A stretch of DNA of 41,953 nt from Candidatus Kerfeldbacteria bacterium RIFCSPHIGHO2_12_FULL_48_17 (GCA_001818775.1 MHKD01000019.1:60778-102730); one strand, 5' to 3'; shown: positions 21,550 through 36,317, counted from the stretch's first letter. The notes: generated by a model from the sequence alone, not told the origin. Made by a program: numbers and translations.

Positions 21550-22575
21550 ATGGCAAAACGTGCTATTTTCGACAAAAAAAATGTGCTGGTGGTGGGTGGA
21601 GCCGGTTTTATCGGTTCACACCTGTGCACCGAATTGGTAAAAACGAGCAAAGTTATCTGTGTGGATAACTTCAGTACGGGGCAGGAGGCGAATGTTGATG
21701 ATTTGCTTGCCAATCCGAATTTCCGGTTTATTCGTCATGACATGTCACAGCCACTCGATCTCCTGCAGCAAGCTTCGCTGGAGCCGTTTCGCGTGCAGTT
21801 TCAGGGGATACAGGAGATTTACAATTTCGCCTGCCCGACTTCTGAAAAGGATCCTGAGAAATTTGCTCTGCAGACATTGCTCGCCAATTCGTATGTTGTA
21901 AAAAATATTTTAGACATTGCCGTCACGAGCGGTGCGAAGGTTGTGCATATTTCCACTTCAGCTGTGTACGGTGATCCGCTGGAAAATCAAAAGGTTTTTC
22001 CGGAAAGTTATTGGGGATTTGTTAATCCGATTGGTTTGCGCGCACCATATAACGAAGGCAAGCGTTTTGCTGAAGCGATGGTGGCCACATACCGGAAGAA
22101 ATACGGTCTTGATTTTAAGATTGCGCGTTTGTTTCACGTCTATGGCCCGCATATGAGTTTTGCTTCCGGGTTTACGATACCTGATATGATCAAAGCCGCA
22201 GCGGGCGGTGAAGATGTGGTTATACACGGCACGGGAAATGAACAACGCTATTATTGTTACGTGAGTGATGTGGTTGATGCTCTGTTGAAACTTATGCAGT
22301 CGAATCTCAGCGGGCCGGTCAACATCGGCAGTACCGAGGGCACCACTACCCGGGTTGTAGCCGGCCTTATTACCAAGGCGCTGAATTCCACTTCCAAGGT
22401 TCTTTTTGCCGATCCATTGCCAGATTATATTGAACATGCTATTCCTGATATAACCCTGGCCAGGGAGCATCTAAGCTGGTTTCCGGTTGTGCGTCTTCCT
22501 CAGGGTATACAGCGGACGGTGAAAGAAATGGTGGCGTCGCAGGTGTTACGATATACGGACTTTACGCAGAAATAA
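21550..22575 (+). CDS. UDP-glucuronate decarboxylase-like SDR enzyme
   Basis: A 341-residue extended short-chain dehydrogenase. Rossmann motif GGAGFIGSH at 16-24 with Asp39, STSAVYGDPL at 135-144 and catalytic Tyr167/Lys171. The segment PESYWGFVNPIGLRAPYNEGKR at 151-172 closely follows the UXS-specific block (YWGxVNPIGxR.YxEGKR) of UDP-glucuronate decarboxylases. It should form UDP-xylose, or another product of UDP-glucuronate. The next gene (ugd) makes UDP-glucuronate, so the two steps sit together. UDP-glucuronate 4-epimerase is a less likely alternative. Confidence 0.85.
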   Translation: MAKRAIFDKKNVLVVGGAGFIGSHLCTELVKTSKVICVDNFSTGQEANVDDLLANPNFRFIRHDMSQPLDLLQQASLEPFRVQFQGIQEIYNFACPTSEKDPEKFALQTLLANSYVVKNILDIAVTSGAKVVHISTSAVYGDPLENQKVFPESYWGFVNPIGLRAPYNEGKRFAEAMVATYRKKYGLDFKIARLFHVYGPHMSFASGFTIPDMIKAAAGGEDVVIHGTGNEQRYYCYVSDVVDALLKLMQSNLSGPVNIGSTEGTTTRVVAGLITKALNSTSKVLFADPLPDYIEHAIPDITLAREHLSWFPVVRLPQGIQRTVKEMVASQVLRYTDFTQK

Positions 22576-22600
22576 TTTATTGGTATTTAATTTGTTGCTT

Positions 22601-23932
22601 ATGAAAATTTCCGTTGTGGGGACAGGTTATGTTGGTCTCGTGACGGGCACATGTTTGGCTGATATTGGTCATTATGTTACGTGCGTTGATATTGACGAAG
22701 CGAAGATTGCTAAGATGCAGCGGGCCAAATCTCCCATTTTTGAGGAGGGTTTGGAGGATATGATGAAGAAAAATATTGAGGTAGATCGTTTGCATTTCAC
22801 GACACGCCTGTCTGATGTGCTGGCGCAAACGGAAGTTTTGTTCATTGCCGTCGGTACGCCTTCTGATGCCGAAGGAAAAGCGGACCTGCAGTATGTAGAA
22901 GCCGTTGCTCATGAGATTGGCAAAAATCTTGATCATGAGATCGTGGTCGCCAATAAAAGTACGGTGCCGGTTGGTACGGCGCGTATGGTGGAAAGTATTA
23001 TCCGCAAGTATTATCATGGTCCATTTGAGGTGGTTTCTTGTCCGGAATTTTTGCGTGAAGGTACGGCTGTGTACGATTTTTATCATCCCGATCGGGTGGT
23101 TATCGGAGCCCGTACCAAACGCGGCGCCGATACCATGTTGAAAGTTTTTGAACCGATCAAAGGCGAGAAAGTCGTAACATCCGTTGAGAGTTCTGAGATG
23201 ATTAAATATGCTTCCAATGCTTTCTTGGCAACGAAGATTTCTTTTATCAATGAAATCGCCAATATCTGTGAACGGGTCGGTGCCGACATTGATGAGGTTG
23301 CGTATGGTATGGGGCTTGATACGCGCATTGGGAATAAATTTTTGCGGGCCGGCCTTGGTTACGGCGGCAGTTGTTTTCCCAAAGATGTGCGTGCGTTGTC
23401 GCAGATTGCGGGCACGAACGGTTATGAGTTTAAGCTGCTGAAGTCAGTGATTGCCGTGAATAATGATCAGCGTAAGTTTTTGATCGAGAAGTTGGAGCGT
23501 GTGCTCGGTGGTATACGGGGTAAAAAAATCGCGGTTTTTGGTTTGGCATTTAAGAATAACACCGATGACGTGCGTGAAAGCGCCGCGCTTGATGTTATTG
23601 AGCTTCTGCAGGGAAGGGGAGTCGCTGAAATTCGCGCTTTTGATCCGCAGGCAATGGAAAACGCCAAGCGTGAAGTTTTCAACGTGCAGTTTGTCAGTGA
23701 TCCTTATGATGCTGCCACTGGCGCTGATGCCGTTATCATCGCGACGGAATGGGAGATGTTCAGTAAACTGGATTGGGCACGCATGAAAGAGGTTATGAGA
23801 CAGCCGTTTATTCTTGATGGGAGAAATATTCTGGATGTTCATGCTCTGAGTAAACTTGGTTTTACCTGTATAAGTGTCGGAAAGGGCAAGGAAGCTCTTG
23901 AAATTCCCGTCACCAAATCCGTAAAAGTATAA
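22601..23932 (+). CDS. ugd: UDP-glucose 6-dehydrogenase
   Basis: A 443-residue enzyme oxidising UDP-glucose to UDP-glucuronate with two NAD+. The N-terminal Rossmann motif is GTGYVG at 7-12, FIAVGTPS at 81-88, the catalytic Cys258 is in GYGGSCFPKD at 253-262, and Lys202 lies in the EMIKYASNAFLA helix. The C-terminal UDP-binding domain contains FGLAFKNNTDDVRESAA. The frame is open from 22580, but the ATG at 22601 gives the standard MKISVVGTGYVG start. Together with the previous gene it forms a UDP-glucose to UDP-xylose route. Confidence 0.95.
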   Translation: MKISVVGTGYVGLVTGTCLADIGHYVTCVDIDEAKIAKMQRAKSPIFEEGLEDMMKKNIEVDRLHFTTRLSDVLAQTEVLFIAVGTPSDAEGKADLQYVEAVAHEIGKNLDHEIVVANKSTVPVGTARMVESIIRKYYHGPFEVVSCPEFLREGTAVYDFYHPDRVVIGARTKRGADTMLKVFEPIKGEKVVTSVESSEMIKYASNAFLATKISFINEIANICERVGADIDEVAYGMGLDTRIGNKFLRAGLGYGGSCFPKDVRALSQIAGTNGYEFKLLKSVIAVNNDQRKFLIEKLERVLGGIRGKKIAVFGLAFKNNTDDVRESAALDVIELLQGRGVAEIRAFDPQAMENAKREVFNVQFVSDPYDAATGADAVIIATEWEMFSKLDWARMKEVMRQPFILDGRNILDVHALSKLGFTCISVGKGKEALEIPVTKSVKV

Positions 23933-23934
23933 AT

Positions 23935-24897
23935 ATGAAACTTGTTGTCACTATTCCGGCGCATAATGAAGAGCAAAATATCGCTGATGTCATCAAAGAG
24001 ATTCCGCGGCGCATTACCGGTATTGAAAGCGTGCAGGTTTTGGTTTTGGATGACGGATCGACGGATAATACCGTCAGGCGGGCCGGGGAAGCCGGCGCTG
24101 ATTTCATTGTTTCTCACAAGCGCAATAAGGGCTTGGCCAAGACATTTTCTGATGCTTTGGAGGAAGCTGTGCGTCATGGCGCGGATATTATCGTGAATAC
24201 CGACGGCGATAATCATTACAACCAGTCAAAAATTCCTGAGCTTATAGCGCCAATACTGGCAGGGCGTGCTGATCTTGTCATTGGCAGCCGCAAGGTGAAT
24301 GAACTCGAGGAAATGCCGTTTTTGAAAAAATATCTCAATATGCTGGCGAGTTTTCTTACTGCCCGTTTGGCGGGTTTGCCGCAGGTTGACATTTCCACCG
24401 GTTTTCGCGCCTATACCCGTGAAGCCGCTTTGCGCATTGCCGTGTATTCCAATCATACCTATACCCATACCACGTTGTTGAGCGCTCATGACCAAAAACT
24501 GATTATTGCCGAGGTTCCCATTAAAGCGCGCAAAGTCAGCCGACCGTCGCGTCTGATTCCGAATGTGCCTCATTTCATCTGGAATGCCGGAGTCAATATT
24601 GTTCGTAATATTGTTCTGTTTCGACCGCTGCGGTTTTTTGGTTTGGTTGGCAGTGTCATTTTCGTTTTGGGGTTGGTGTTTGTGGTGCGATTTTTGTGGT
24701 TGTATTTTGCCGGTGATGGAGCCGGGCATATTCAGTCGTTGGTGCTGGCCGGTATTCTCATGATTATCGGTTTTCAGACGGGTGTTTTGGGCCTGCTTGG
24801 TTCTTCCATTGGTTGGAGCCGTAAGGTTTCCGAGGAGATTTTGTATCGCTTGAAGCGGGCTGAGTTTGATCAGGGCGACAAAAAATCAAAACAATGA
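23935..24897 (+). CDS. Family 2 glycosyltransferase with C-terminal membrane helices (GtrB/DPM-like)
   Basis: A 320-residue GT2 protein. Its catalytic domain begins with VVTIPAHNEEQNIADVI, then LDDGSTDNT, RNKGLAKTFSDALE and the metal-binding NTDGDNHY. Two hydrophobic helices near residues 237-260 and 268-290 (ending near LLGSSIGWSR) form the membrane anchor seen in undecaprenyl-phosphate glycosyltransferases such as ArnC/GtrB. It probably loads a sugar on polyprenyl phosphate. It is two bases from ugd and overlaps the next gene by ATGA. Confidence 0.9.
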   Translation: MKLVVTIPAHNEEQNIADVIKEIPRRITGIESVQVLVLDDGSTDNTVRRAGEAGADFIVSHKRNKGLAKTFSDALEEAVRHGADIIVNTDGDNHYNQSKIPELIAPILAGRADLVIGSRKVNELEEMPFLKKYLNMLASFLTARLAGLPQVDISTGFRAYTREAALRIAVYSNHTYTHTTLLSAHDQKLIIAEVPIKARKVSRPSRLIPNVPHFIWNAGVNIVRNIVLFRPLRFFGLVGSVIFVLGLVFVVRFLWLYFAGDGAGHIQSLVLAGILMIIGFQTGVLGLLGSSIGWSRKVSEEILYRLKRAEFDQGDKKSKQ

Positions 24898-25976
24898 AGG
24901 TTTTATTTTTGTCGAGGAAATTTCCGCCACGTGTTGGTGGTATGGAGCAGCACAGTTTTCATCTGCTTCATGCCCTCGGCGCTGGCGGAGTTGATGTCCG
25001 GCCGCTGGTTTTGCGCCGTTCACAGATTCATTTGGTATGGTGGTTGCCGTGGGCATTGCTGCGTGGTCTCATGTTGGCGAGGCGTGTTGATCTTATCTAT
25101 GTTGCCGATGGATTACTGGCTCCCTTGGCCTGGGTTTTGCGGTTTGTGTGGCGCAAGCCGGCGATCGCCACGGTTCATGGTCTGGATGTTACGTACAGGA
25201 ACTTTTTGTACCAGCTGGTGAATGTTTCGGCTTTGCGGCGTTTAGATGCGGTTATTGCGGTGAGTGATGCCACGCGGGAGGAACTGATCAGGCGCGGGTT
25301 TCGGCAGCAGAGTATTTTTGTGGTTGCCAATGGTGTTGATGTGAGTCGGTTCGCGAATTCGTTGTCAGATAAGCAGAGTGTTGCTGATATTATTTTTACA
25401 AGCACGGGAAAACGTGTTTCTCCTCATGGAAAGCGTATACTTTTTTCCGCCGGTAGGTTGATTCGGAGAAAGGGTTTTACCTGGTTTCTTGCTGAGGTAT
25501 TTTCAGCACTTCCGCCAGAGTATATTTATTGTATAGCGGGAAGCGGTTCGGAACGGCAGCATCTGGAAGCGCTGATAGAAGAACATGGTTGGCAGGATAG
25601 GGTGTTTTTGTTGGGGCGTGTTTCTGATGCCCAGATCGGGACCTTGTTTTTTGCCGCTGATGTGTTTATCATGCCGAATATTGCGGTTACCGGTGACGCT
25701 GAGGGTTTTGGGATTGTGGCTTTGGAAGCGGCTGCGTGTGGTTTACCAGTTTTGGCTGCCAATATTGATGGCCTACCCGCGGCGATTCATGACGGTAAAA
25801 ACGGTTGGTTAGTGCCTTCCGGCGCAGCTCGCGCCTGGCAGGAGGCTGTTGTAAAGTACTCGGAGCGGGGGGCACATCCTGTGCGCGCAGAAATCGCCGC
25901 CTATACGAAAAAAGTTTTTTCCTGGGAACAGAGAGCAAAACAATATGAAGACATTTTCAAAAAAATTACTCGGTAA
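24894..25976 (+). CDS. Family 4 glycosyltransferase (GT-B fold)
   Basis: A 360-residue GT4 enzyme. The N-terminal acceptor domain starts VLFLSRKFPPRVGGMEQHS, with VHGLDVTYRN and AVSDATREELIRRG in the middle. The C-terminal donor domain has SAGRLIRRKGF and the E-x7-E region in EGFGIVALEAAACGLPVLA. These are the retaining GT4 landmarks. The donor sugar (GDP-mannose or a UDP-sugar would fit) cannot be read from the sequence. The last 32 bases overlap the start of the next gene. Confidence 0.92.
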   Translation: MKVLFLSRKFPPRVGGMEQHSFHLLHALGAGGVDVRPLVLRRSQIHLVWWLPWALLRGLMLARRVDLIYVADGLLAPLAWVLRFVWRKPAIATVHGLDVTYRNFLYQLVNVSALRRLDAVIAVSDATREELIRRGFRQQSIFVVANGVDVSRFANSLSDKQSVADIIFTSTGKRVSPHGKRILFSAGRLIRRKGFTWFLAEVFSALPPEYIYCIAGSGSERQHLEALIEEHGWQDRVFLLGRVSDAQIGTLFFAADVFIMPNIAVTGDAEGFGIVALEAAACGLPVLAANIDGLPAAIHDGKNGWLVPSGAARAWQEAVVKYSERGAHPVRAEIAAYTKKVFSWEQRAKQYEDIFKKITR

Positions 25977-27690
25977 GATTCCGGCTGGGGCGGTTCATTT
26001 TTTCATCATTGCGGCCCTGATTTTGTTTTTTGGTTTTCTCTTCTTTTCAAACAGGGCATTCGGATCATGGGGTGATGACAGCCCTGGTTATATATACCTT
26101 ACCCATAAAATCTTTTTCCATAAACCGTTGGTGTATCAGGATGCCCTGGTGGAGCGTGGACTTGATTTTTTCCATAAACCGGCGAGGGCTGATTTTTTGG
26201 CGCCCCGTCACCATACCATTATCTCTCCTGATGGTTTTGTGGCTTCCAAATACCCGGTTGGTTTGTCGTTTCTGATGGTTATCCCGGTTCTGTTTACGGG
26301 CAATCTTGATGATATTTATTTTGTTCTGCCTTTTTTCGCCGTCGCAACCCTTGTTTTGGTGTACGGTATTGCCTATATATTGGTTAGGCGTTGGCGATAT
26401 TCTTTTCTTATTGCGTTTTTATCGGCTTTGGCCTTGGGTTTATCAACTTTGTATGAAAATTACGGTATTTCGCAGCCGATGCGGGAGATTCCTTCGATTT
26501 TTTTTCTTTTACTCGCGCTCTGGTTTTTGCTGCTGCTGAAGGAATATACTCCGAAGAAACCCGTTTTCTATGTATTGCTCGCGTTGTCTGCCATCTCACT
26601 TGGTTTTTCTTTTAACATCCGGGAAACGGGCATTATCCTTATGCCGGCTTTTTTCATGGTCGGGTTGAGCGTCGCCCGCAGTTACGGTTGGACGTGGAAG
26701 GGGTTCATTCTTCCGGCGCTTGTTTTTTGTTTGTTCCTTGTCGGCACTTTGTCTTTGACGGTCTGGAATTCCGCACAGATTTCCGCTCACAGCGTGTCAT
26801 TTGATTCCGGGACAGCCGCGCCCGTGCTCCTTTCCAATATTGATCATTTGGAATCTTTTTCCTGGCGTAATATTTATGACAATCAGGGGAAGTTTCGTCC
26901 CGGGGAAGGCGGCATTGTTCATTATTGGGGCGTTATACAGGGCATGTCGCCATTTCCTTTTTGGTTTGTTTTGGTTGTTTTCGGAATGGTTGTCTATATG
27001 TATCGCGGCAGCAAGCTCTTGGGTGGCGCGCTGATTGTTTGGGTGCTCAGTGTCGTGCTTCTGTTTTCCCTGTGGATCAATCCGTATTCACGGTACATCT
27101 TGCCCATTTTTCCCGTATTGGCTGTTTTTGGCTCGATCGGTCTAGTGAGCGTGCTTGTCGTTGTTGTTGATTATGTGCAGCGGCGTTGGCTGAGGGATAT
27201 CATTGTGCTGGCTTGTTTCGGTGTATTGTTCATTTTCGTCCAACCGTATGCGCTTGAGGAGTTTCGTGATCAATTTTCCGGTGGCGTTCTGCAGTTTAAG
27301 GCAATTTCCCACAGCGATCTACAAACACTGAAAGGTATAGCCGATGTGATTGAGCCGGGTGATATGGAGCAGCGTTTAGAAACCGATGATACGTTATTGA
27401 TGTTCTCGGGCACCTGGCAGTACGGCCTGAGCGAAACGTTTGAAAACCATACCGGCATCCGGGCCATTCGTTCGCCGCTGGAGCAGCGTTCTGCGATTTC
27501 TGCAGACACAGCCACGGATTTTTTCACAGCTGACGTTTTTCCTCATTATCAGGTGTATGCCTGGCTTGATGATACATCGCCGGTTGTGTACAGAGATTGG
27601 CTGACGCAGAATTTTCAACTCGATCTCGTGACGGTTCGGGCCTTTACTTTTCAGGAAAATGTTTCCATTTATAAACTCACTCCAAAATAA
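25945..27690 (+). CDS. Polytopic GT39/ArnT-like glycosyltransferase
   Basis: A 581-residue membrane protein with about ten helices in the first 430 residues and a soluble C-terminal domain (about 440-581). SWGDDSPGYIYLT in the first large loop contains acidic residues positioned like the catalytic Asp/Glu of PMT/ArnT GT-C enzymes, which take sugar from a polyprenyl-phosphate donor on the outer face. This fits the two polyprenyl-phosphate glycosyltransferases upstream. The start overlaps the GT4 gene by 32 bases; the frame gives no better Met nearby. The acceptor is unknown. Confidence 0.8.
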   Translation: MKTFSKKLLGKIPAGAVHFFIIAALILFFGFLFFSNRAFGSWGDDSPGYIYLTHKIFFHKPLVYQDALVERGLDFFHKPARADFLAPRHHTIISPDGFVASKYPVGLSFLMVIPVLFTGNLDDIYFVLPFFAVATLVLVYGIAYILVRRWRYSFLIAFLSALALGLSTLYENYGISQPMREIPSIFFLLLALWFLLLLKEYTPKKPVFYVLLALSAISLGFSFNIRETGIILMPAFFMVGLSVARSYGWTWKGFILPALVFCLFLVGTLSLTVWNSAQISAHSVSFDSGTAAPVLLSNIDHLESFSWRNIYDNQGKFRPGEGGIVHYWGVIQGMSPFPFWFVLVVFGMVVYMYRGSKLLGGALIVWVLSVVLLFSLWINPYSRYILPIFPVLAVFGSIGLVSVLVVVVDYVQRRWLRDIIVLACFGVLFIFVQPYALEEFRDQFSGGVLQFKAISHSDLQTLKGIADVIEPGDMEQRLETDDTLLMFSGTWQYGLSETFENHTGIRAIRSPLEQRSAISADTATDFFTADVFPHYQVYAWLDDTSPVVYRDWLTQNFQLDLVTVRAFTFQENVSIYKLTPK

Positions 27691-27691
27691 C

Positions 27692-28426
27692 ATGAATACT
27701 ATCCCGGGCGCTTCTGCCGACCATCCGTTTTCCTCAGTTTCAAAAATTAAAACGATTCGCGATGTCCGCGTTTTCCAAAAACCGCATGACAGTATTTTCG
27801 CGAAGCTCATCATCCGGCGGATATCAAGAATTTTCACCTTTTACCTCATGCGGGTACGGTGGGCCACGCCGAATGTTGTTTCCACCCTGGCACTGTTGTT
27901 TGGTTTTGCCGCTGCGCTGTTTTTCTTGTCGCCTACTTACGGGATGCGCGTGTGGGGCGTTGTTCTCTTGCAACTTTCTTTGGTGCTTGATTGTTGTGAC
28001 GGTGAACTGGCCCGCATCCGTGGTTTACAAAGTCCGTTTGGAGCCTGGCTTGACAGCGTGTATGACCGCTTGAAAGAAGCGGCGATGATTTTTGCCATGG
28101 CGTTGTTTGTTTACCAGCAGGGCGCCAATGGCGGCAACGTGAATATTTTGTTTGTTGGTTTTGCGGCGGTGCTTGGTTTGCAGATTATGTCTTTTTTGCG
28201 GGAAGCCAAAAAGAGTTCCTGGCCGACGTCGCGAACAGCCGAGTTCTATATTTTGCCGACCGTGTATATCGGCTCGGTTGACGTGATTATTTACGGTGTT
28301 TCTTTTGCCGTTCTCCTGGGTTTACAGTTGTGGGCTGTGTGGTTTTTTGCGCTTATCAGTATTCCGCTTATCGTTAAACAGATTGCCAGCGCCTGGGGAT
28401 TACATAAAAAGAAGGCTGCGGAGTAG
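27692..28426 (+). CDS. CDP-alcohol phosphotransferase family protein (first copy)
   Basis: A 244-residue membrane protein with the full family motif D-x2-DG-x2-AR-x8-G-x3-D-x3-D: Asp100, Asp103, Arg108, Gly117, Asp121 and Asp125. The N-terminal block around KPHDSIFAKLIIRRISR and TPN recalls the transferase half of archaeal/thermophile di-myo-inositol-phosphate phosphate synthases (fold-level impression). It transfers a phosphoalcohol from a CDP-alcohol to a hydroxyl acceptor. The frame is open from 27659 but the ATG at 27692 avoids overlap. It converges on the dehydrogenase gene. Confidence 0.88.
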   Translation: MNTIPGASADHPFSSVSKIKTIRDVRVFQKPHDSIFAKLIIRRISRIFTFYLMRVRWATPNVVSTLALLFGFAAALFFLSPTYGMRVWGVVLLQLSLVLDCCDGELARIRGLQSPFGAWLDSVYDRLKEAAMIFAMALFVYQQGANGGNVNILFVGFAAVLGLQIMSFLREAKKSSWPTSRTAEFYILPTVYIGSVDVIIYGVSFAVLLGLQLWAVWFFALISIPLIVKQIASAWGLHKKKAAE

Positions 28427-28449
28427 GGTTCGCAAACACCCATTCCGGC

Positions 28450-29484
28450 CTAAAATTTATTGCTCATAATAAGTTTTTTGAGCGCTTCCAGTGTAGTGCT
28501 ATTTTTTGCTATGTACTGATGGAGAAAATGGGTGAGCGGATATTTTTCCGTGTCGGTGATTTTGTTGAGTACGGCAATGGTTTTGACGCCTTCCACGGTT
28601 TTACCTTCTCTTTTCATTTGTTTGATCGCCTGGTGCGGACTGAGGCCCTGGCCGAGGAGGATGCCGAACTGCCGGTTACGCGTATTGCCGGTGCAGCTCA
28701 TCCACAGATCATTGCCCCAGCACTGACTTTTCATGCTGAATGTCGCTTTTTTGCCGCCAAGTTTCCTCGTGACAATGCGCTCCATTTCATAGGCAGCCCG
28801 AGAAATGACATGTGTTTCCGAGCCATAGGAAAATCCCATGCCCTTGATTATGCCGGCAAGTATGGAAATGACGTTTTTAAATGCTGCTGCATATTCTAAA
28901 CCGGTAAGGTCGGTGTTGGTGTATACGGAAAGGTTGGGCGACTGGAAGAGTTTTTTGACCAACGGCAAAATGCGCTTATCATCGCCAGCAACATCAACTC
29001 CCAACGGTTCGTGCTTAAAGAGGTCACTGGCAATAGTGCCGCCGGCCAGGAAAGCGTAGGAGTAGGTTTTTCCTCTGAGCTCTTCTTTAATGATTTCGGA
29101 CAGGCGTCTACTGGTTTTATAATCGAGGGCTTTGGCGGTATTGACGATGATTGCGCCGTCTTTCAGGTGATTTTTGATGGTTCGTACCACCTCACGTGTT
29201 GCTTCTGAGGGGACGACGAGTACGACGATATCGGCGTTTTTCACCAGCTCCTGGGGGCTTTTCGGGAATTGAATGTTTTTTGAAACGCTCACCGTTGGGT
29301 GCAGGTAGGGGTGTCGGTGTGTTTTTCGCAGAGTGTCGGTGACGGTTTTGTTCACGTCAAAGGCAAAGAGTGTATGGCGTGGGTCAGCTTTTTTGTCGAG
29401 GTGTTTGAGTATGGCATAGCCAAAATTTCCAATGCCGAATATGGCTATTTTTTTTTGGCTCCCGGTAGGCGTGTATTTGTCCAT
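28450..29484 (-). CDS. NAD(P)-dependent glycerol-3-phosphate dehydrogenase-like protein
   Basis: A 344-residue GpsA-like enzyme. The Rossmann motif is FGIGNFG (Gly-x-Gly-x2-Gly near residues 17-22), VNTAKAL corresponds to the GpsA NTAKG block, and EYAAAFKNVISILAGI carries the catalytic Lys. DLWMSCTGNTRNRQFG replaces DLxxTCxSxxSRNRxFG. The usual SGPSFAxE block reads AGGTIASDL, so the substrate pocket differs from classical GpsA. It would interconvert dihydroxyacetone phosphate and a glycerol phosphate, or a related polyol phosphate. The start lies two bases from the cytidylyltransferase-like gene stop, pointing to one operon. Classical gpsA for phospholipid synthesis is the alternative. Confidence 0.8.
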   Translation of the reverse strand: MDKYTPTGSQKKIAIFGIGNFGYAILKHLDKKADPRHTLFAFDVNKTVTDTLRKTHRHPYLHPTVSVSKNIQFPKSPQELVKNADIVVLVVPSEATREVVRTIKNHLKDGAIIVNTAKALDYKTSRRLSEIIKEELRGKTYSYAFLAGGTIASDLFKHEPLGVDVAGDDKRILPLVKKLFQSPNLSVYTNTDLTGLEYAAAFKNVISILAGIIKGMGFSYGSETHVISRAAYEMERIVTRKLGGKKATFSMKSQCWGNDLWMSCTGNTRNRQFGILLGQGLSPHQAIKQMKREGKTVEGVKTIAVLNKITDTEKYPLTHFLHQYIAKNSTTLEALKKLIMSNKF

Positions 29485-29486
29485 AC

Positions 29487-30170
29487 TTAGCCGTTATTTT
29501 TGATATGTTTTTGAACACTGGCCAGGTCGGCGGGAAAGTCGATTTCTTGACAGAAGAGACCGCCAATATCCACCGGTTTCAGTTTGATTTTACCGACCAT
29601 CGTCAGGTTTTCGAGGGCTTTTTCAAAGTAGTCTTTATTTTCAACTTTTTTGAGTTCTTCGCGGAACAGCGGGAGTTCATGTTTGCGGATCACGTTAATG
29701 CCGAGGGCTTCACCGGCGGCATTCTTTACTTTTTTCGAGAGTTCTTTGATATTGCCGGCCTCATCGGTGGTATATTTTATTTCTTCTTCGGCAGTTTTTT
29801 TCGTATCCACCAGGCAGCTTGATTGTGGTTTGCCCATCAGGAGCTCCAAAACTTTATCTTCAAAATACACATCGCCGTTCATCCAAATAACGTCTTCTTC
29901 GATTTTTTCCAGCGCCATCATGAGGCTTTTTGATGTGTTGTTGTGCGCGTAGGCATGATTATAAATGAAGACAAGGTCAGGAAATTTTTCCATGATGATT
30001 TCTTTTTTGTAACCCACGCATATGAAAATGTTGTTCGCGCCCACCACGCGCGCCAGTTTTTCGATTTGAAAATCAAGAATCGTTTTTTCACCAATCAGCG
30101 CCGAGAGCGGTTTTGGGATGAGACTGCCGAGTCGTGTTCCCATTCCGGCTGCTAAAATAACGGCTTTCAT
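29487..30170 (-). CDS. Sugar/alcohol-phosphate nucleotidyltransferase (cytidylyltransferase-like)
   Basis: A 227-residue NTP-transferase. The N-terminal LAAGMGTRLGSLIPKPL at 6-22 (Lys20) binds the nucleotide, NNTSKSL at 77-83 matches the region of LicC-type choline-phosphate and inositol-phosphate cytidylyltransferases, and WMNGDVYF at 97-103 carries the metal-binding Asp100. No left-handed beta-helix follows, so it is single-domain. The start overlaps the CDP-alcohol transferase stop by four bases, making it likely that it supplies the CDP-alcohol that the neighbouring enzyme uses. Nucleotide specificity (CTP) is inferred from context. Confidence 0.85.
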   Translation of the reverse strand: MKAVILAAGMGTRLGSLIPKPLSALIGEKTILDFQIEKLARVVGANNIFICVGYKKEIIMEKFPDLVFIYNHAYAHNNTSKSLMMALEKIEEDVIWMNGDVYFEDKVLELLMGKPQSSCLVDTKKTAEEEIKYTTDEAGNIKELSKKVKNAAGEALGINVIRKHELPLFREELKKVENKDYFEKALENLTMVGKIKLKPVDIGGLFCQEIDFPADLASVQKHIKNNG

Positions 30171-30895
30171 AATGATGTTTTGTTAGATGATTTTGTAAAA
30201 TGATTATACCAGCTCATACCTGATTTTGCGAGAAGAATCAGCGCGCCCCAAATGCAGTATATCCAGAGCATCAGTTCGATTTTGCCGAGAATGGCGCAGA
30301 TGCTGATGACGGCCAGGCGTTCGCTCTGCATAAACAGCAATGATTCCTTCAGAATGGCGCTCAGTCTGGTGAAGCCGGTTTTTGGTATCTTTTTTTCATC
30401 TGTATATTTGTTTGAGAGATCAATGATACCGAGGTTTTTGCGCAGAGAAAAATCGTAGTGCCTGAGGTTGGTGGCCAGTATTCCGGCAAAGGCCAGGGTG
30501 AAGAGTTGCGTGTCGCCGCTGGCCTGGAATGCGCTGTATGTGAGTGCGAAAATGGCGAGGAATTCAGTGAGACGATCACTCATATAGTCGAACCAGGCGC
30601 CAAAAGCTGATTTTTGATTGGTTGCCCGCGCCAGTTGGCCATCGGCAACGTCAAATATAAGGCCTATTTGGATGAGAATAGCGCCAATGATCAGTTGCGC
30701 CTGTGAGCCCAGGAAAAATAAAAAAATTCCCACCAGTGTCGTGACTACGGAAAAAAATGTCAGGGTATTGGGATGAATATTGAGTGCTGCCGAGGCTTTT
30801 ACCAGGTAGGGGGAGAGGGTGCTGGAAACATAGCTCGCAAAGAAGCCGTCAACGTTTTTTACTGCTTTTTTCGCTTCAGTTAGTGTGATTTTCAT
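30167..30895 (-). CDS. CDP-alcohol phosphotransferase family protein (second copy)
   Basis: A 242-residue membrane protein with the complete D-x2-DG-x2-AR-x8-G-x3-D-x3-D motif (Asp82, Asp85, Arg90, Gly99, Asp103, Asp107). The N-terminal VDGFFASYVSS...HPNTLTFFS block resembles that of the first copy at 27692. About six membrane helices. Its gene overlaps the nucleotidyltransferase gene and the flippase gene by four bases each, so the three are translationally coupled. It probably transfers a phosphoalcohol from the CDP-donor to a lipid or glycan acceptor before export. Acceptor and donor are not identifiable. Confidence 0.87.
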   Translation of the reverse strand: MKITLTEAKKAVKNVDGFFASYVSSTLSPYLVKASAALNIHPNTLTFFSVVTTLVGIFLFFLGSQAQLIIGAILIQIGLIFDVADGQLARATNQKSAFGAWFDYMSDRLTEFLAIFALTYSAFQASGDTQLFTLAFAGILATNLRHYDFSLRKNLGIIDLSNKYTDEKKIPKTGFTRLSAILKESLLFMQSERLAVISICAILGKIELMLWIYCIWGALILLAKSGMSWYNHFTKSSNKTSL

Positions 30896-32343
30896 GTGGT
30901 CGTGGGAGATGATTTTTTGGGAACAAGTTGCTGAAAGAGTTTGCGATCATGCGGTGTAAAAAATCCGGAAATAAATAAAATTACTCCGTAGAGTATGCCT
31001 CCGCCTATCACTAAAATTATCACATTTGTATGTTCTTTGGTCAATATTATGGCTGCAGCCAGCACACTGCCGGCAAGGAGGCTGCGCAGATGACTTTTCC
31101 AGTGAGCAAAGAATGTTGAATTGGTTGCTTTCCTGGCCATTCTGATAAAAAATATGGTCATAATCGTTTCAACGGTGAGGGTTGCTATGGCCGCGCCCAC
31201 AAAGCCGTAACGGTGGATGAGTATATAATTAAAAACAATATTAAGGACCAGGGTTCCGACTTGCACCCATACTTTTTGCATCTGCTTGTCTACGCTGGTG
31301 AGTATGTTTGATGCGCCACTCCCCATGAAACGTATAACAGTAAAGACGCCGAATAATTGCATGGCGACTTCGGCGCCGCTGAACCCCGAGCCATAGAGTA
31401 GATGAATAATTTCTTCGGGGAGGAGTATCATGCCAATTCCCAGCGGCAGACCGAGGGCGGTGAAATAGCGCGTCATAATGTCATGCGCCCGCTTGAGTTT
31501 TTCTGATTTTTCATGATAGAGCTTATAGAGTGTCGGTAAAATAGCTTCGTATGTCATGCGGGGAATGAAGAGGAGGAAGGTGACGAGTTTGGCTGCGGCT
31601 GAGTAGAGGGCGACTTCGCGGCTGCCTTCGATGAGCGATATCATCACCTGGTCGATTTGAAAATAGATGGTGACGAAAGCGGCACTGAGGGCGAAAGGGT
31701 AAGCTTCCTTGACCATGGCGGGAATTTTTTTGAGTGACAGCGTGGGGCGAATTTTTTTCAGACATAGGGAGAAAAAAATAATGTTGCTGAGGGTATAGGT
31801 TATGAGATAGGCAAAGGCAATGGCGTTGAGGCCCTGTTTTTGCGGGATGGCCAAGGCGATAATGAATACGAGAACCAGAAGAATGATTCCGGTAAATGTT
31901 TCAAACCCCGCAGAAACATTCATTTTCAGGAGTATGCTGTAGATGCCGCGAAAGGCGCGGCGGTATTCGAAGATGAGTAACGCGCCGCCGATCGTGATGA
32001 TGATTTTAAGGATATTCGGATCGTAGTTGAGCTGAAAGGCGGTGAATATCATGGCCCCGTACAGTACGACACTCATTACGAGTTCAACGAAAAGAGTGTT
32101 GCCAAAAAATTCACGAATAGCCTGGGTGTTTTTGGTTCCTTCACGAACCATGAGCGTGCCCATACCCAGATCAAAAAATACCAGAAATATGTTGGCAAAA
32201 GCCATGCCGGTTTCGAGTTGGCCGTACAGTTCCACACCAAGAAAGCGCGCGGCAATGATGATGGTTGCTGCGGTGGTAAAACGAAAAATCAGCCGGCCGC
32301 TGAGCAGGAACACGGAATTGAGCAGCGCTTTTCGAAAAATCAT
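30892..32343 (-). CDS. Polysaccharide flippase (Wzx/MOP superfamily)
   Basis: A 483-residue polytopic protein with about 12-14 hydrophobic segments and the features of oligosaccharide flippases: RFTTAATIIIAARFLGVELYGQL at the N-terminus, then repeated transmembrane pairs. These proteins carry undecaprenyl-linked glycans across the membrane. It is first in the minus-strand operon, followed by the CDP-alcohol transferase (ATGA overlap), so the exported molecule may carry the phosphodiester-linked group made by that operon. A consensus promoter lies about 40 bases upstream. Confidence 0.9.
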   Translation of the reverse strand: MIFRKALLNSVFLLSGRLIFRFTTAATIIIAARFLGVELYGQLETGMAFANIFLVFFDLGMGTLMVREGTKNTQAIREFFGNTLFVELVMSVVLYGAMIFTAFQLNYDPNILKIIITIGGALLIFEYRRAFRGIYSILLKMNVSAGFETFTGIILLVLVFIIALAIPQKQGLNAIAFAYLITYTLSNIIFFSLCLKKIRPTLSLKKIPAMVKEAYPFALSAAFVTIYFQIDQVMISLIEGSREVALYSAAAKLVTFLLFIPRMTYEAILPTLYKLYHEKSEKLKRAHDIMTRYFTALGLPLGIGMILLPEEIIHLLYGSGFSGAEVAMQLFGVFTVIRFMGSGASNILTSVDKQMQKVWVQVGTLVLNIVFNYILIHRYGFVGAAIATLTVETIMTIFFIRMARKATNSTFFAHWKSHLRSLLAGSVLAAAIILTKEHTNVIILVIGGGILYGVILFISGFFTPHDRKLFQQLVPKKSSPTTT

Positions 32344-32380
32344 AGCGTATGTCTCTGAGTGGTAGTTTGTTTATTTGCTT

Positions 32381-32409
32381 ATTGTAGTCATTTTTCATGA
32401 CTCTGGCAA
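32381..32409 (-). promoter_or_regulatory. Promoter of the flippase operon
   Basis: On the minus strand: TTGCCA, 17-base spacer, TACAAT. Start near 32374, about 31 bases before the ATG at 32343. Its -35 is identical to that of the divergent promoter at 32431. Confidence 0.7.
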
Positions 32410-32430
32410 TCTTTTTTCGCTGTTCTTTAT

Positions 32431-32459
32431 TTGCCAAAAGCGGTGAATTATCATACACT
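32431..32459 (+). promoter_or_regulatory. Promoter of the 522-aa gene
   Basis: TTGCCA, 17-base spacer, TACACT. Start near 32466, so the ATG at 32469 begins almost at the 5' end and the mRNA may be leaderless. Confidence 0.65.
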
Positions 32460-32468
32460 GAATTGGCT

Positions 32469-34037
32469 ATGATTAAACAAATACTTACATCTTTTGCCTG
32501 GTTTCGGGTGCTGCGGGCTGTGTGTATTTTGGTTCCTGTTTTGGTTTTTGGCTGGCTCCTTAATCAGTATTTTGCTTTTGGCGGGCGTTTGGTGACGCAC
32601 TATTCTTTTGCCAAGGATCTCCGCGATCAGGAACAAATTATCAGCGATTTGCAACCAGCAGGACGTGTTTCGTCTCCTGAAGCGGACCTTGATTCCGGCG
32701 TGCAGTATCGGCGCTGGCGGCTTGAGCCCATATATTTTGATGTTTTCATGCCCCGCCTGTATGAGAAAGCGACGGTTTCACTCACCTACAGCAATCCCAG
32801 TCAAAAATTTATTTCGCTGGGTTTGCGCAAGGGGAATCCGGAAATTGCCAATACTTTTGATTTTCAACCTTTGGAAAATAAAATTATTGACCATTCCAAA
32901 TGGTCCCTTCTGTATGATCAAGCCAATGATATTTCGTTTCTGCAGGAAGATAATGATTTTAAGAGTGTTCAGGATTTTTTTAACAATGTTCCCCGTGATA
33001 AGAAGGTCGGCGTTTTTAATGTGAATTTTCATCCTCCGATTATTTTACCGGATTATGCGCCTCAACCCGGTCGACTCGTTATCAACAGCACTTTGCGCGG
33101 GCGGCATGTTTTTTATACGTACATTAAAGATGAGGATCTTGATCTGCATTTCACCTGGCAGGATATTAATCGTGGTTTTGGCGCCGATCCCGTGAATGTG
33201 GAAATTATGCATAATGATCAGCTGGTCAAAAATGTTTCTCTGGCTGATGATGGTCAGGTGACGCCTTCAGGTTTGACCAGTCAGCCGACTGATTTCCGCC
33301 TACAAGAAGCGGACCTGCCGGAAGGTGTGTATACAATCATTTTCAACATCACTGATGATGTTTTCATTCGTTCGATTGATACGGCACAGCATCTTTTTGT
33401 TGCGGAAAATACGCTTTTTTTGGCTGCTGGCGAGGATTATAAACAGCAAATTCCGGATCTTGATCTGGCGCAGACCCAGGTTTTTTCCGACGCGCTGCGC
33501 CTCCGTGCCCAGACGACGCATGACACAGGGTTGCAAGTTATTGATATTAATGGACAGTCCCTGATTCTTCAGACACTGGGCGCTCCTCAGGCCTGGAATT
33601 CGCCGTTTTTCGACATTACCGAAAGCGCAGCAGCTGCAGCAGGTCTTGCCAGGCCTGATATCACAACTATCACTGTGCCGAAGAATGACGTCCAGCTTTT
33701 TGCCAATGGTTTTTACGCCTTTACGCCTGACAGTTATTTTAATCCCAGGAGAAACATAGTTGAACTTACACCTGATACCCCGGCTGTGGATCTGGATTAC
33801 CTTCTTTTTTCCCACTATACGCCACCGGGCAAACGCGGCAAATGGCTGACCACGACCGCATCGTTTGATATTCGTGCCGATCACCTGCAGGAAGGTGGTC
33901 GTACCCTTAATTTTATTCTTTCGGCGCCTGGTTTGGACCTGGTGGATGATGATATACTTATCCGGGATGTTACGGTCACCCTTGAAAAGAAACCGTTCTC
34001 TTTTTCCAAGCTCAAAGATTTTTTTGCCCGCTTATGA
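32469..34037 (+). CDS. Membrane-anchored extracytoplasmic protein of unknown function
   Basis: A 522-residue protein. A membrane helix at about 13-33 (VLRAVCILVPVLVFGWLLN) acts as an uncleaved anchor. The remainder is a large extracytoplasmic region rich in beta strands with several YxxxxDF and DPVN-type segments, without a motif I can name. The frame is open from 32397, but the ATG at 32469 lies just after the promoter. It is divergent from the flippase operon and overlaps a small two-helix protein by ATGA. A role in glycan handling is a guess from position. Confidence 0.7.
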   Translation: MIKQILTSFAWFRVLRAVCILVPVLVFGWLLNQYFAFGGRLVTHYSFAKDLRDQEQIISDLQPAGRVSSPEADLDSGVQYRRWRLEPIYFDVFMPRLYEKATVSLTYSNPSQKFISLGLRKGNPEIANTFDFQPLENKIIDHSKWSLLYDQANDISFLQEDNDFKSVQDFFNNVPRDKKVGVFNVNFHPPIILPDYAPQPGRLVINSTLRGRHVFYTYIKDEDLDLHFTWQDINRGFGADPVNVEIMHNDQLVKNVSLADDGQVTPSGLTSQPTDFRLQEADLPEGVYTIIFNITDDVFIRSIDTAQHLFVAENTLFLAAGEDYKQQIPDLDLAQTQVFSDALRLRAQTTHDTGLQVIDINGQSLILQTLGAPQAWNSPFFDITESAAAAAGLARPDITTITVPKNDVQLFANGFYAFTPDSYFNPRRNIVELTPDTPAVDLDYLLFSHYTPPGKRGKWLTTTASFDIRADHLQEGGRTLNFILSAPGLDLVDDDILIRDVTVTLEKKPFSFSKLKDFFARL

Positions 34038-34264
34038 CCACGACGCGTCTTTCGGCCAAAATCGAGTGGCAAAAAACTGTACATCTTGCCTTTGTCGCCA
34101 CCGTTATTTTTTATCTTGTTTGCCTTGTGTCCGAGCAGTTTATCCCGGGTTTTGTGAGTTTTTATTTTCCCTTGCACTGGGTGCTTTGGGTTGTTGTTAT
34201 TTTTGCCCTTCTTGATGGTATTTTGCACTGGGGTGTTTTCAAAAACCGTATGAAGAAATTTTGA
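34034..34264 (+). CDS. Small two-helix membrane protein
   Basis: A 76-residue protein with hydrophobic segments at about 17-40 and 46-64 and a basic C-terminus (VFKNRMKKF). The start overlaps the 522-aa gene's stop (ATGA), so it is translationally coupled and probably acts with that protein. No recognised family. Confidence 0.65.
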   Translation: MTTTRLSAKIEWQKTVHLAFVATVIFYLVCLVSEQFIPGFVSFYFPLHWVLWVVVIFALLDGILHWGVFKNRMKKF

Positions 34265-34283
34265 ACAGGCTCTGATCCAGACG

Positions 34284-34313
34284 TTGACACAGCCCGCAAA
34301 ATACGGTTACATT
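34284..34313 (+). promoter_or_regulatory. Promoter of the fused rmlA-rmlB gene
   Basis: Perfect TTGACA, 18-base spacer, TACATT, giving a start near 34320 and a leader of about 50 bases. A CCAGAC (34277-34282) / GTCTGG (34324-34329) inverted repeat flanks the promoter and could be an operator. Confidence 0.55.
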
Positions 34314-34370
34314 TAACTCTTGAGTCTGGCATGCGGCGGGGCGTAATTTCTAAATACTTAAACGGAACAC

Positions 34371-36317
34371 ATGAAAGGTGTCATACTTTCCGGCGGCAGC
34401 GGCAGTCGGTTGCGTCCGCTCACCAAAGTTACGAGCAAACAGCTTCTTCCGGTTTATAATAAACCGATGATTTACTATCCGCTGCGAACGCTCCTTAAAG
34501 CGGGTATTAAGGAAATTTTGATTATTATTGCACCTGAGCATTCCGGTGATTACGTCAACCTTCTTGGTTCCGGAAGCCAGTTTGGAGCCCGGTTTTCCTA
34601 CGAAGTTCAGGATAAGCCGATTGGTTTGGCCCACGGTTTGTTTTTGGCGGAAAGTTTTGCGGATGGCGATCAGGTGACGATGATCCTCGGTGACAACATT
34701 TTTGAAGATGATTTCAGTAAGGATATCAAGAGTTTCAGTGGCGGTGCCAAGATTTTTGCCAAGGAGGTCTCCGATCCGCAGCGTTTCGGTATTGTGGAGT
34801 TTGATGAGCAGGGCAAAGTTATTTCGATAGAAGAAAAACCCGAAAAACCAAAATCCAATTATGCCCAACCCGGGTTGTATATTTATGAAGGTGGTGTGTT
34901 TGCCAAGATCCGTAGCCTGAAACCGTCGGCACGCGGTGAGTACGAAATTACCGACCTGAATAATATTTATTTGCATGAAGGTGAACTTACGGCCAGTATC
35001 GTGAAAGGTGAGTGGAAGGATGCTGGTACGTTTGAGAGTTTATTCCAGGCCAGTGAATTGGCCCGCAAATTGGCGTTGACCACCGATCCTGCCCTCGCCA
35101 AACCGGTTCGGCGCGAGGTGGGTCCGTTTACCGGTTTTCATGCCAAAGCTTCGGCCGGTATGTCCGGGGTTGTTCCCGCCGCGCAGCCGAGAGAGGGCTA
35201 TGATCCTTTTTTTGACATGAATTTTCCGCATGTCGCTCAGATGGGCCTCAGTGGCGAAAAGTTTGTCATCCCTCCTGTAACGGAAGGATTTTCCAAAGCC
35301 AGGCGCAGAATTCTTGTTACCGGCGGCGCCGGGTTTATGGGTTCAAATATGATTCATTACCTGCTGAAAAAGTATGATGATGTTGCCATTCTCAACCTTG
35401 ATAAGCTGACGTATGCCGGTAATCTGGAAAATCTTACGGATGTGGAAAAAAATTCGCGATACGTATTTGTTAAGGGTGATATTTCCGATGTCAAGACGGT
35501 GAATACCTTATGCAAGGCTTTTGCTTTTGATGCCGTTATAAACTATGCCGCCGAAACGCATGTTGACCGTTCCATTATGGATCCTTCAGCCTTTTTGTAC
35601 ACCGATATTATTGGTACGTATAATCTTTTGGAAGCGGTAAAGAAATACCGCATAGGTACAATGATTCAGATTTCCACTGATGAGGTTTTTGGCGAAGCGA
35701 TTGATCGCGAGTTTGTTGAGACGTCGCCTTTTGAACCGAACAGTCCGTATTCCGCTTCCAAGGCCGGCGGTGATCATTTGTGTCGGGCCTATTTCCGAAC
35801 ATACAAAACTCCCGTTATTGTCACCCACAGCTGCAATTTTTACGGGCCGTACCAATATCCCGAAAAATTGATTCCACTTTTTATCACCAATCTTCTCGAG
35901 AAAAAGAAAGTGCCTGTGTATGGCCAGGGTGATCAGATACGCGAATGGATTTACACCGAAGATCATTGCCGCGCGATCGATTTGATTTTAGAAAAGGGTC
36001 TGGCGGGCGAAGTTTATAATATTGGCACGGGTGAGCGAATGAAAAATATTGATGTAACCAGGATGATTCTGCGCATGCTTGATATGTCCGATTCACATAT
36101 TGAATATGTTACCGATCGCCCCGGTCATGATGTCCGGTACGCCGTCAATGCTGATAAATTACGAGAAAGACTCGGTTGGGAACCGAAGCACAGTTTTAAG
36201 GAATCATTGCAGTTGACGCTTGATTGGTATCAGAAGAATATGGATTGGTGGAAAGACATAAAGTCCGGAAAATTTTTGGAATACTACCAGAAACAATATG
36301 GGGACAGAAAAAAATAA
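34371..36317 (+). CDS. Fused glucose-1-phosphate thymidylyltransferase / dTDP-glucose 4,6-dehydratase
   Basis: A 648-residue bifunctional protein. Residues 1-240 are a complete RmlA: LSGGSGSRLRPLTKVTSKQLLPVYNKPMI with the dTTP loop, LGDNIFEDD, EEKPEKPKSN and the C-terminal GEWKDAGTFESL. Residues about 311-648 are a complete RmlB: TGGAGFMGSN Rossmann motif, AAETHVDRS, STDEVFGE, YSASKAGGDHL with the catalytic Tyr/Lys, and GDQIREWIYTEDHC. They are joined by a linker of about 70 residues that is not recognised. Normally these are separate genes. The product would be dTDP-4-keto-6-deoxyglucose. No rmlC or rmlD is present in the window, so another sugar than rhamnose is possible. It overlaps the DUF4190-like gene by 20 bases. 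Confidence 0.95.
   Translation: MKGVILSGGSGSRLRPLTKVTSKQLLPVYNKPMIYYPLRTLLKAGIKEILIIIAPEHSGDYVNLLGSGSQFGARFSYEVQDKPIGLAHGLFLAESFADGDQVTMILGDNIFEDDFSKDIKSFSGGAKIFAKEVSDPQRFGIVEFDEQGKVISIEEKPEKPKSNYAQPGLYIYEGGVFAKIRSLKPSARGEYEITDLNNIYLHEGELTASIVKGEWKDAGTFESLFQASELARKLALTTDPALAKPVRREVGPFTGFHAKASAGMSGVVPAAQPREGYDPFFDMNFPHVAQMGLSGEKFVIPPVTEGFSKARRRILVTGGAGFMGSNMIHYLLKKYDDVAILNLDKLTYAGNLENLTDVEKNSRYVFVKGDISDVKTVNTLCKAFAFDAVINYAAETHVDRSIMDPSAFLYTDIIGTYNLLEAVKKYRIGTMIQISTDEVFGEAIDREFVETSPFEPNSPYSASKAGGDHLCRAYFRTYKTPVIVTHSCNFYGPYQYPEKLIPLFITNLLEKKKVPVYGQGDQIREWIYTEDHCRAIDLILEKGLAGEVYNIGTGERMKNIDVTRMILRMLDMSDSHIEYVTDRPGHDVRYAVNADKLRERLGWEPKHSFKESLQLTLDWYQKNMDWWKDIKSGKFLEYYQKQYGDRKK

Follow-up and report, generated by a model that had tools for sequence, protein, structure and literature searches.

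A candidate CDP-glycerol cassette for glycerol phosphate decoration of a surface glycan in a Kerfeldbacteria genome

Which alcohol phosphate is made, activated and transferred by four tightly coupled genes in the genome of Candidatus Kerfeldbacteria bacterium RIFCSPHIGHO2_12_FULL_48_17, an ultra-small Patescibacterium? The genes lie on a 41,953-nucleotide stretch of this genome (GCA_001818775.1 MHKD01000019.1:60778-102730), here called the window, and are transcribed from its minus strand in the order flippase, CDP-alcohol phosphotransferase (CAP1), cytidylyltransferase (CyT) and GpsA-like dehydrogenase:

30892-32343, minus strand: flippase, open reading frame of 483 aa, PF01943/PF13440
30167-30895, minus strand: CAP1, open reading frame of 242 aa, PF01066
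29487-30170, minus strand: CyT, open reading frame of 227 aa, PF12804/PF00483
28450-29484, minus strand: GpsA-like dehydrogenase, open reading frame of 344 aa, PF01210+PF07479

The open reading frames and the junction sequences confirm the arrangement described in the initial annotation: the flippase/CAP1 and CAP1/CyT junctions are 4-nt ATGA overlaps, and CyT and the dehydrogenase are joined through TAA-gt-ATG, with a gap of 2 nt. The families of the four products, and that of a second CDP-alcohol phosphotransferase (CAP2) facing the end of the operon, were all confirmed by Pfam. We propose, with a probability of about 0.72, that the cassette makes CDP-glycerol, adds its glycerol phosphate to a lipid or sugar chain of the cell surface and flips the product outward. 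Most probably it decorates the envelope with glycerol phosphate much as teichoic-acid systems do, but with a CDP-alcohol phosphotransferase in place of the TagF-type transferase. The GpsA-like enzyme would reduce dihydroxyacetone phosphate (DHAP) to sn-glycerol-3-phosphate (G3P), which CyT would join with CTP into CDP-glycerol. CAP1, a membrane enzyme, would then pass glycerol phosphate from CDP-glycerol to an acceptor in the membrane, most probably an oligosaccharide that the surrounding glycosyltransferases build on a polyprenyl carrier, and the flippase would turn the glycerophosphoryl product outward. Three lines of evidence support the logic already put forward in the initial annotation, from polyol phosphate through CDP-alcohol and transfer to export: the neighbourhood is conserved, other enzymes fill the dehydrogenase and transferase slots in related loci, and the structure models agree.

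The dehydrogenase slot

Our sampling comprised 1,821 genome searches in all, overlaps included, and a class set of 381 genomes (G and L numbers denote genomes and loci). A search of this class set with CyT recovered the order flippase-CyT-G1PDH-CAP1 in five ABY1-class genomes from two families (G198, which is a Kerfeldbacteria metagenome-assembled genome, G226, G103, G147 and G166, the G1PDH of the last being known from the class-wide family match), with a homologous GT4 glycosyltransferase directly before the cassette in four of the five. The dehydrogenase of these cassettes matches NF002022 at ~1e-80, below the equivalog cut-off, that of G198 matches solved G1PDHs at ~1e-44, and all G1PDH matches above 90 bits in the class are the five cassettes and a sixth copy at a contig end, where CAP1 follows. 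G1PDH and GpsA have unrelated folds, share DHAP as substrate and yield mirror-image products, sn-glycerol-1-phosphate (G1P) and G3P. Because the substrate is common to both, the alcohol of the slot would be glycerol, and because the gene order, or a slot-substituted form of it, recurs in other genomes, the overlap of the four genes is not due to chance. The flippase, CAP1, CAP2 and the membrane protein at 25945-27690 are likewise common to the window and the G1PDH cassettes.

Two chemistries had been suggested for the locus in the initial annotation, of which the CDP-glycerol or teichoic type is favoured here and the di-myo-inositol-phosphate type disfavoured, the homologous slot being filled by G1PDH, a maker of glycerol phosphate. 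Archaetidylinositol phosphate synthase and IPCT/DIPPS are indeed the best sub-threshold family matches, as di-myo-inositol or phosphatidylinositol chemistry would have it, but all are below cut-off (43.9 and 55.3 bits vs 580 for IPCT/DIPPS) and both occupants of the dehydrogenase slot are DHAP reductases, so that we regard this chemistry as highly improbable. The use of G1P for archaeal lipids was also considered for the related cassettes and rejected, as no GGGPS was found above cut-off in the cassette genomes.

Two further observations concern the G1PDH loci. A type I phosphodiesterase (PF01663) accompanies the cassettes at L077:11269-12900, L081:9536-11128, L083:2861-4489 and L219:4893-6521, and in G147 a glutamine amidotransferase and a CyT adjoin a 1016-aa protein that has PPDK_N and PEP-utilising domains and weakly resembles CyT (L082:7034-11474), a locus that by analogy recalls phosphoramidate synthesis of the L-glutamine kinase type in a Patescibacterium.

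The GpsA-like protein is the sole GpsA of its genome and belongs to a divergent subfamily, scoring 211.6 bits with the best NCBIfam GpsA model, below its cut-off of 257. Phylogenetic analysis placed it apart from plain GpsA, in a six-member clade with a long stem and support of 100/100 that joins the window to G083, G064, G347, G356 and G475 (44-56% identical to the window's); the GpsA of G214 is intermediate (38%) and other GpsA matches in the class reach at most ~31%. The alteration of the SGPSFA block noticed earlier is real, the block reading AGGTIASDL and being common to a subfamily, and there is an insertion at the GND motif. The structure model has the G3P dehydrogenase fold (TM 0.80-0.88 to such enzymes, with the next families at ~0.6 or lower), and alignment to solved enzymes shows that the residues with catalytic roles in GPD1, here Lys118, Lys203 and Asp259, and the phosphate-binding pair, here Arg269-Asn270, are retained. 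From sequence and model we propose that the protein is a DHAP reductase yielding G3P. The altered block, the insertion and the separate long-stem clade would also suit an enzyme acting on another ketone phosphate and feeding another CDP-polyol, such as CDP-2-glycerol, CDP-glycerate or a CDP-tetritol, and CTP:phosphoglycerate enzymes do exist, as CpgD exemplifies (PMC12275187). Given that the catalytic and phosphate-binding residues are kept, that AGGTIAS resembles the GANIAS of human GPD1, that G1PDH replaces GpsA in relatives and that a PF04464 gene adjoins the subfamily in G475, we consider such a product quite unlikely.

A more conventional use of G3P would be a phospholipid head-group route, in which a PgsA-like CAP1 acts on CDP-diacylglycerol to give phosphatidylglycerol phosphate and CyT serves a separate purpose. 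Lipids are the usual destination of the GpsA product, CDP-diacylglycerol is a common substrate of PF01066 enzymes and CAP1 has weak pgsA similarity. Family searches of the window's own genome, which is 91% complete, did not find PlsY, PF04464 or G1PDH, and the single CdsA-type match was sub-threshold; with no visible lipid route for G3P made by GpsA, CDP-glycerol becomes its most likely use. The position of CyT between CAP1 and GpsA, the closer likeness of CAP1 to AF2299 and IPCT-DIPPS, the G1PDH in the homologous slot of genomes without GGGPS and the PF04464 neighbour in G475 also argue against the head-group route, which we judge unlikely.

CyT, CAP1 and the flippase

The AlphaFold model of CyT (pLDDT 96) has a MobA-like NTP transferase fold in which the two metal-binding residues, D100 and D211, are invariant. 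Its closest folds in the PDB are PntC and LicC, with IPCT close behind, and not GlmU; nor does CyT fall among the sugar-1-phosphate uridylyltransferases, an assignment that would have counted against the pathway first suggested. PntC, LicC and IPCT are cytidylyltransferases that act on phosphonates or phospho-alcohols. From its gene neighbours we propose that CyT is a CTP:glycerol-phosphate cytidylyltransferase.

The neighbours in other genomes point the same way. A scan of GTDB contigs placed the closest relatives of CyT in unrelated phyla, and those at L089 (62%), L092, L093 and L099 adjoin PF04464, the CDP-glycerol glycerophosphotransferase family. PF04464 genes were present in 28 of the 48 best CyT loci and in none of 12 comparison loci, a contrast qualified by the lack of independence among loci and by the origin of the comparison set in other Patescibacteria. 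In Clostridium sulfidigenes (L155) CyT and G1PDH are followed by two PF04464 genes, and at two Planctomycetota loci (L137, L142) a GpsA homologue directly precedes CyT. G475, of another Patescibacteria class, has flippase, CyT, a member of the GpsA subfamily (52%) and PF04464 (1e-73) in one tight run, and in G594 CyT (54%) is followed by PF04464. The PF04464 neighbours in G475, G594 and other phyla thus tie both the GpsA subfamily and this type of CyT to CDP-glycerol independently of the window. Two variants deserve mention on their own account: in G475 CyT and a HAD-type phosphatase form a single fused protein, whose gene immediately precedes that of the GpsA-subfamily member (L239:2772-4271), and in G466 a PEP mutase-NTP transferase fusion is followed by an iron-containing alcohol dehydrogenase, CyT and CAP (L240:3184-8716), an arrangement suggestive of phosphonolipid or phosphonoglycan synthesis in Patescibacteria.

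CAP1 matches PF01066 at 5e-14, and its nearest solved proteins are AF2299 (4o6m, 3e-16) and IPCT-DIPPS (4mnd, 5e-7). The signature D-x2-DG-x2-AR-x8-G-x3-D-x3-D is complete in both CAP1 and CAP2, and by tree path CAP1 is nearest to the CAP1 proteins of the G1PDH cassettes; it is proposed to be a CDP-glycerol:acceptor glycerophosphotransferase. The flippase is of the MOP/Wzx type (PF01943, 1.7e-21). Flippases from the G1PDH cassettes and from family f42 group with it at 100/100, separately from the remaining Patescibacteria flippases, and identities reach 37%. The window's flippase would presumably export the lipid-linked product bearing glycerol phosphate.

These enzyme types are also those of compatible-solute synthesis as in Archaeoglobus and Aquifex, where CDP-glycerol and inositol phosphate or glycerol would give glycerophosphoinositol or diglycerol phosphate. 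The IPCT/DIPPS similarity fits such a solute, and two Archaeoglobales loci (L138, L140) carry CyT (32-33%) beside a CDP-alcohol phosphotransferase 36-37% identical to CAP2. A flippase within the run, glycosyltransferases around it, links to a polymer transferase family (PF04464) and a run that has no phosphatase gene all make a soluble product very unlikely.

CAP2 and the surrounding glycan genes

If glycerol phosphate is placed on a glycan, as we propose, the genes around the cassette may indicate which. They include:

27692-28426 (longest open reading frame from 27659), plus strand: CAP2, second CDP-alcohol phosphotransferase, PF01066
25945-27690, plus strand: large membrane protein of unknown family, companion of CAP2, no Pfam match
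24894-25976, plus strand: GT4 glycosyltransferase, PF00534
22580-24897, plus strand: two genes (Pfam), a UDP-glucose/GDP-mannose dehydrogenase-family gene (UGD) and a GT2
32397-34037, plus strand: uncharacterised protein divergent from the flippase, no Pfam match, homologue in L037

CAP2 is convergent with the cassette, as had been noted, with its start at 27692 or 27659 and 23 bp between its end and the GpsA stop. We claim no terminator between the two genes (hairpin z -1.4, terminator-like sites no commoner than in shuffles) and no function for the promoter-like sites (11 vs 5.8 in shuffles). The cluster from 21550 to 36317 carries UDP-sugar dehydrogenase-family, RmlA-RmlB and glycosyltransferase genes, and this suggests a glycan acceptor. 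The order UGD-GT2-GT4-membrane protein-CAP2 is kept in L224, L225 and L226, an orthologue of the membrane protein lies in the CAP2 block of L077, L081, L219, L224, L225, L226, L227/L192 and L228, and the window's GT4 is 32-38% identical to the GT4 adjoining the cassette flippase in L077, L079, L080 and L083.

Among the 381 genomes, CAP2 orthologues at 48-53% identity occur in exactly six others, all with the cassette, and three more genomes have one at 38-40%. Within the glycan pathway served by CAP1, CAP2 may catalyse a second transfer. Its presence in 7/7 cassette genomes has a naive hypergeometric probability of 5e-13, a value uncorrected for relatedness in which independence is overstated, five of the seven genomes being of one family.

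This overstatement is one of several points that weigh against a CDP-glycerol cassette. The neighbourhood search advised in the initial annotation found the genes together in relatives, in substituted forms, but the exact set of GpsA, CyT, CAP and flippase was seen in no sampled genome except the window's, and from the organism's own taxonomic order the search covers two genomes, one of them without the genes. Three family f42 genomes have CAP2, with no CyT detected. The fold family of CyT also serves phosphocholine, 2-aminoethylphosphonate and inositol phosphate, and the window type of CyT is not tied to GpsA, because G198 has a 57% homologue and no GpsA match. The first scan of GpsA-subfamily neighbourhoods covered five loci, two with flippase and glycosyltransferase genes nearby and none with CyT or CAP, a result unfavourable if taken alone; the subfamily members of G083, G064, G347 and G356 have no CyT or PF04464 within the ~10-16 kb fetched. 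CAP1 sits on a long branch, and in a genome 91% complete gene absences are not proof.

Several features of the neighbourhood are recorded in their own right. The window holds a single 648-aa open reading frame that fuses an RmlA-like nucleotidyltransferase with an RmlB-like dehydratase (34371-36317). ATP sulfurylase and a DHH protein in G075 (L225:11129-13292) and APS kinase in G198 (L077:17121-17747) lie beside the membrane protein and CAP2, and from these sulfation-type genes the glycan may also be sulfated. CAP2 of G212 is split into two overlapping open reading frames (L219:4028-4592), through either gene disruption or assembly error, and contig C13 of the window's own genome encodes a third CDP-alcohol phosphotransferase of 216 aa (L220:7283-7933). 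A homologue of the 32397-34037 protein (30% identical, E 2e-66) is divergent from a GpsA-flippase pair in G083 (L037, 586-2094), and this protein is a possible functional partner of the cassette.

Handedness and known systems

The exchange of non-homologous GpsA and G1PDH makes the choice between G3P and G1P, the 'lipid divide', testable in a glycan pathway. Tentatively, and with some doubt, we suggest that the Kerfeldbacteria-like cassette uses an archaeal-type G1PDH to make CDP-sn-1-glycerol for a G1P envelope glycan built by a CDP-alcohol phosphotransferase, and that the window lineage has GpsA with another CyT, so that the handedness of surface glycerol phosphate would have switched in evolution. 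According to PMC8262930, most bacteria probably lack free G1P, and CDP-1-glycerol is unlikely to occur in bacteria; the G1PDH cassettes are possible exceptions to the latter statement. A CDP-glycerol cassette would plausibly explain what GpsA does in a Patescibacterium that seems to have no route from G3P to phospholipids, and it predicts teichoic-acid-like glycerol-phosphate surface chemistry from an enzyme set unlike the Gram-positive one.

Compared with known enzymes, the dehydrogenase is like bacterial GpsA and human GPD1 in fold and in catalytic and phosphate-binding residues, but differs by its separate clade, AGGTIAS block, GND insertion and operon linkage to CyT. CyT is most similar to LicC and PntC (1jyk, 6pd1) in both sequence and fold, yet at only 20-24% identity, and genes for choline kinase, LicD and phosphonates are missing from the operon. 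The synthesis of glycerophosphoinositol and di-inositol phosphate in Archaeoglobus and Aquifex (GCT or IPCT with a CDP-alcohol phosphotransferase; 4mnd, 2xme) shares the CyT fold and its pairing with a CDP-alcohol phosphotransferase, but those systems make soluble solutes, whereas the window's cluster includes a flippase and glycosyltransferases and has the dehydrogenase within the run. The EgsA/AraM-type G1PDH cassettes of Kerfeldbacteria and relatives have homologous flippase, CyT, CAP1, CAP2, GT4 and membrane protein, and differ in having G1PDH in place of GpsA, a CyT of another type and the PF01663 phosphodiesterase that the window lacks.

A close parallel in chemistry would be the synthesis of wall teichoic acid and of poly(glycosylglycerol phosphate) capsule (TagD-TagB/TagF, Cps3B/Cps3D; PMC8262930, PMC5974469), where glycerol phosphate activated as CDP-glycerol is put on a glycan, and related CyT and GpsA genes adjoin PF04464 transferases in other genomes. 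The Tag/Tar pair of a TagD-type cytidylyltransferase and a PF04464 transferase is absent here, no TagD-like HxGH motif occurring in the fetched stretches and no PF04464 in the genome; the window has a CDP-alcohol phosphotransferase in the transferase slot and a Wzx-type flippase where those systems use ABC export. Relative to them, two enzymes would be exchanged: a LicC/PntC/IPCT-fold cytidylyltransferase would take the place of TagD, and a CDP-alcohol phosphotransferase that of TagB/TagF.

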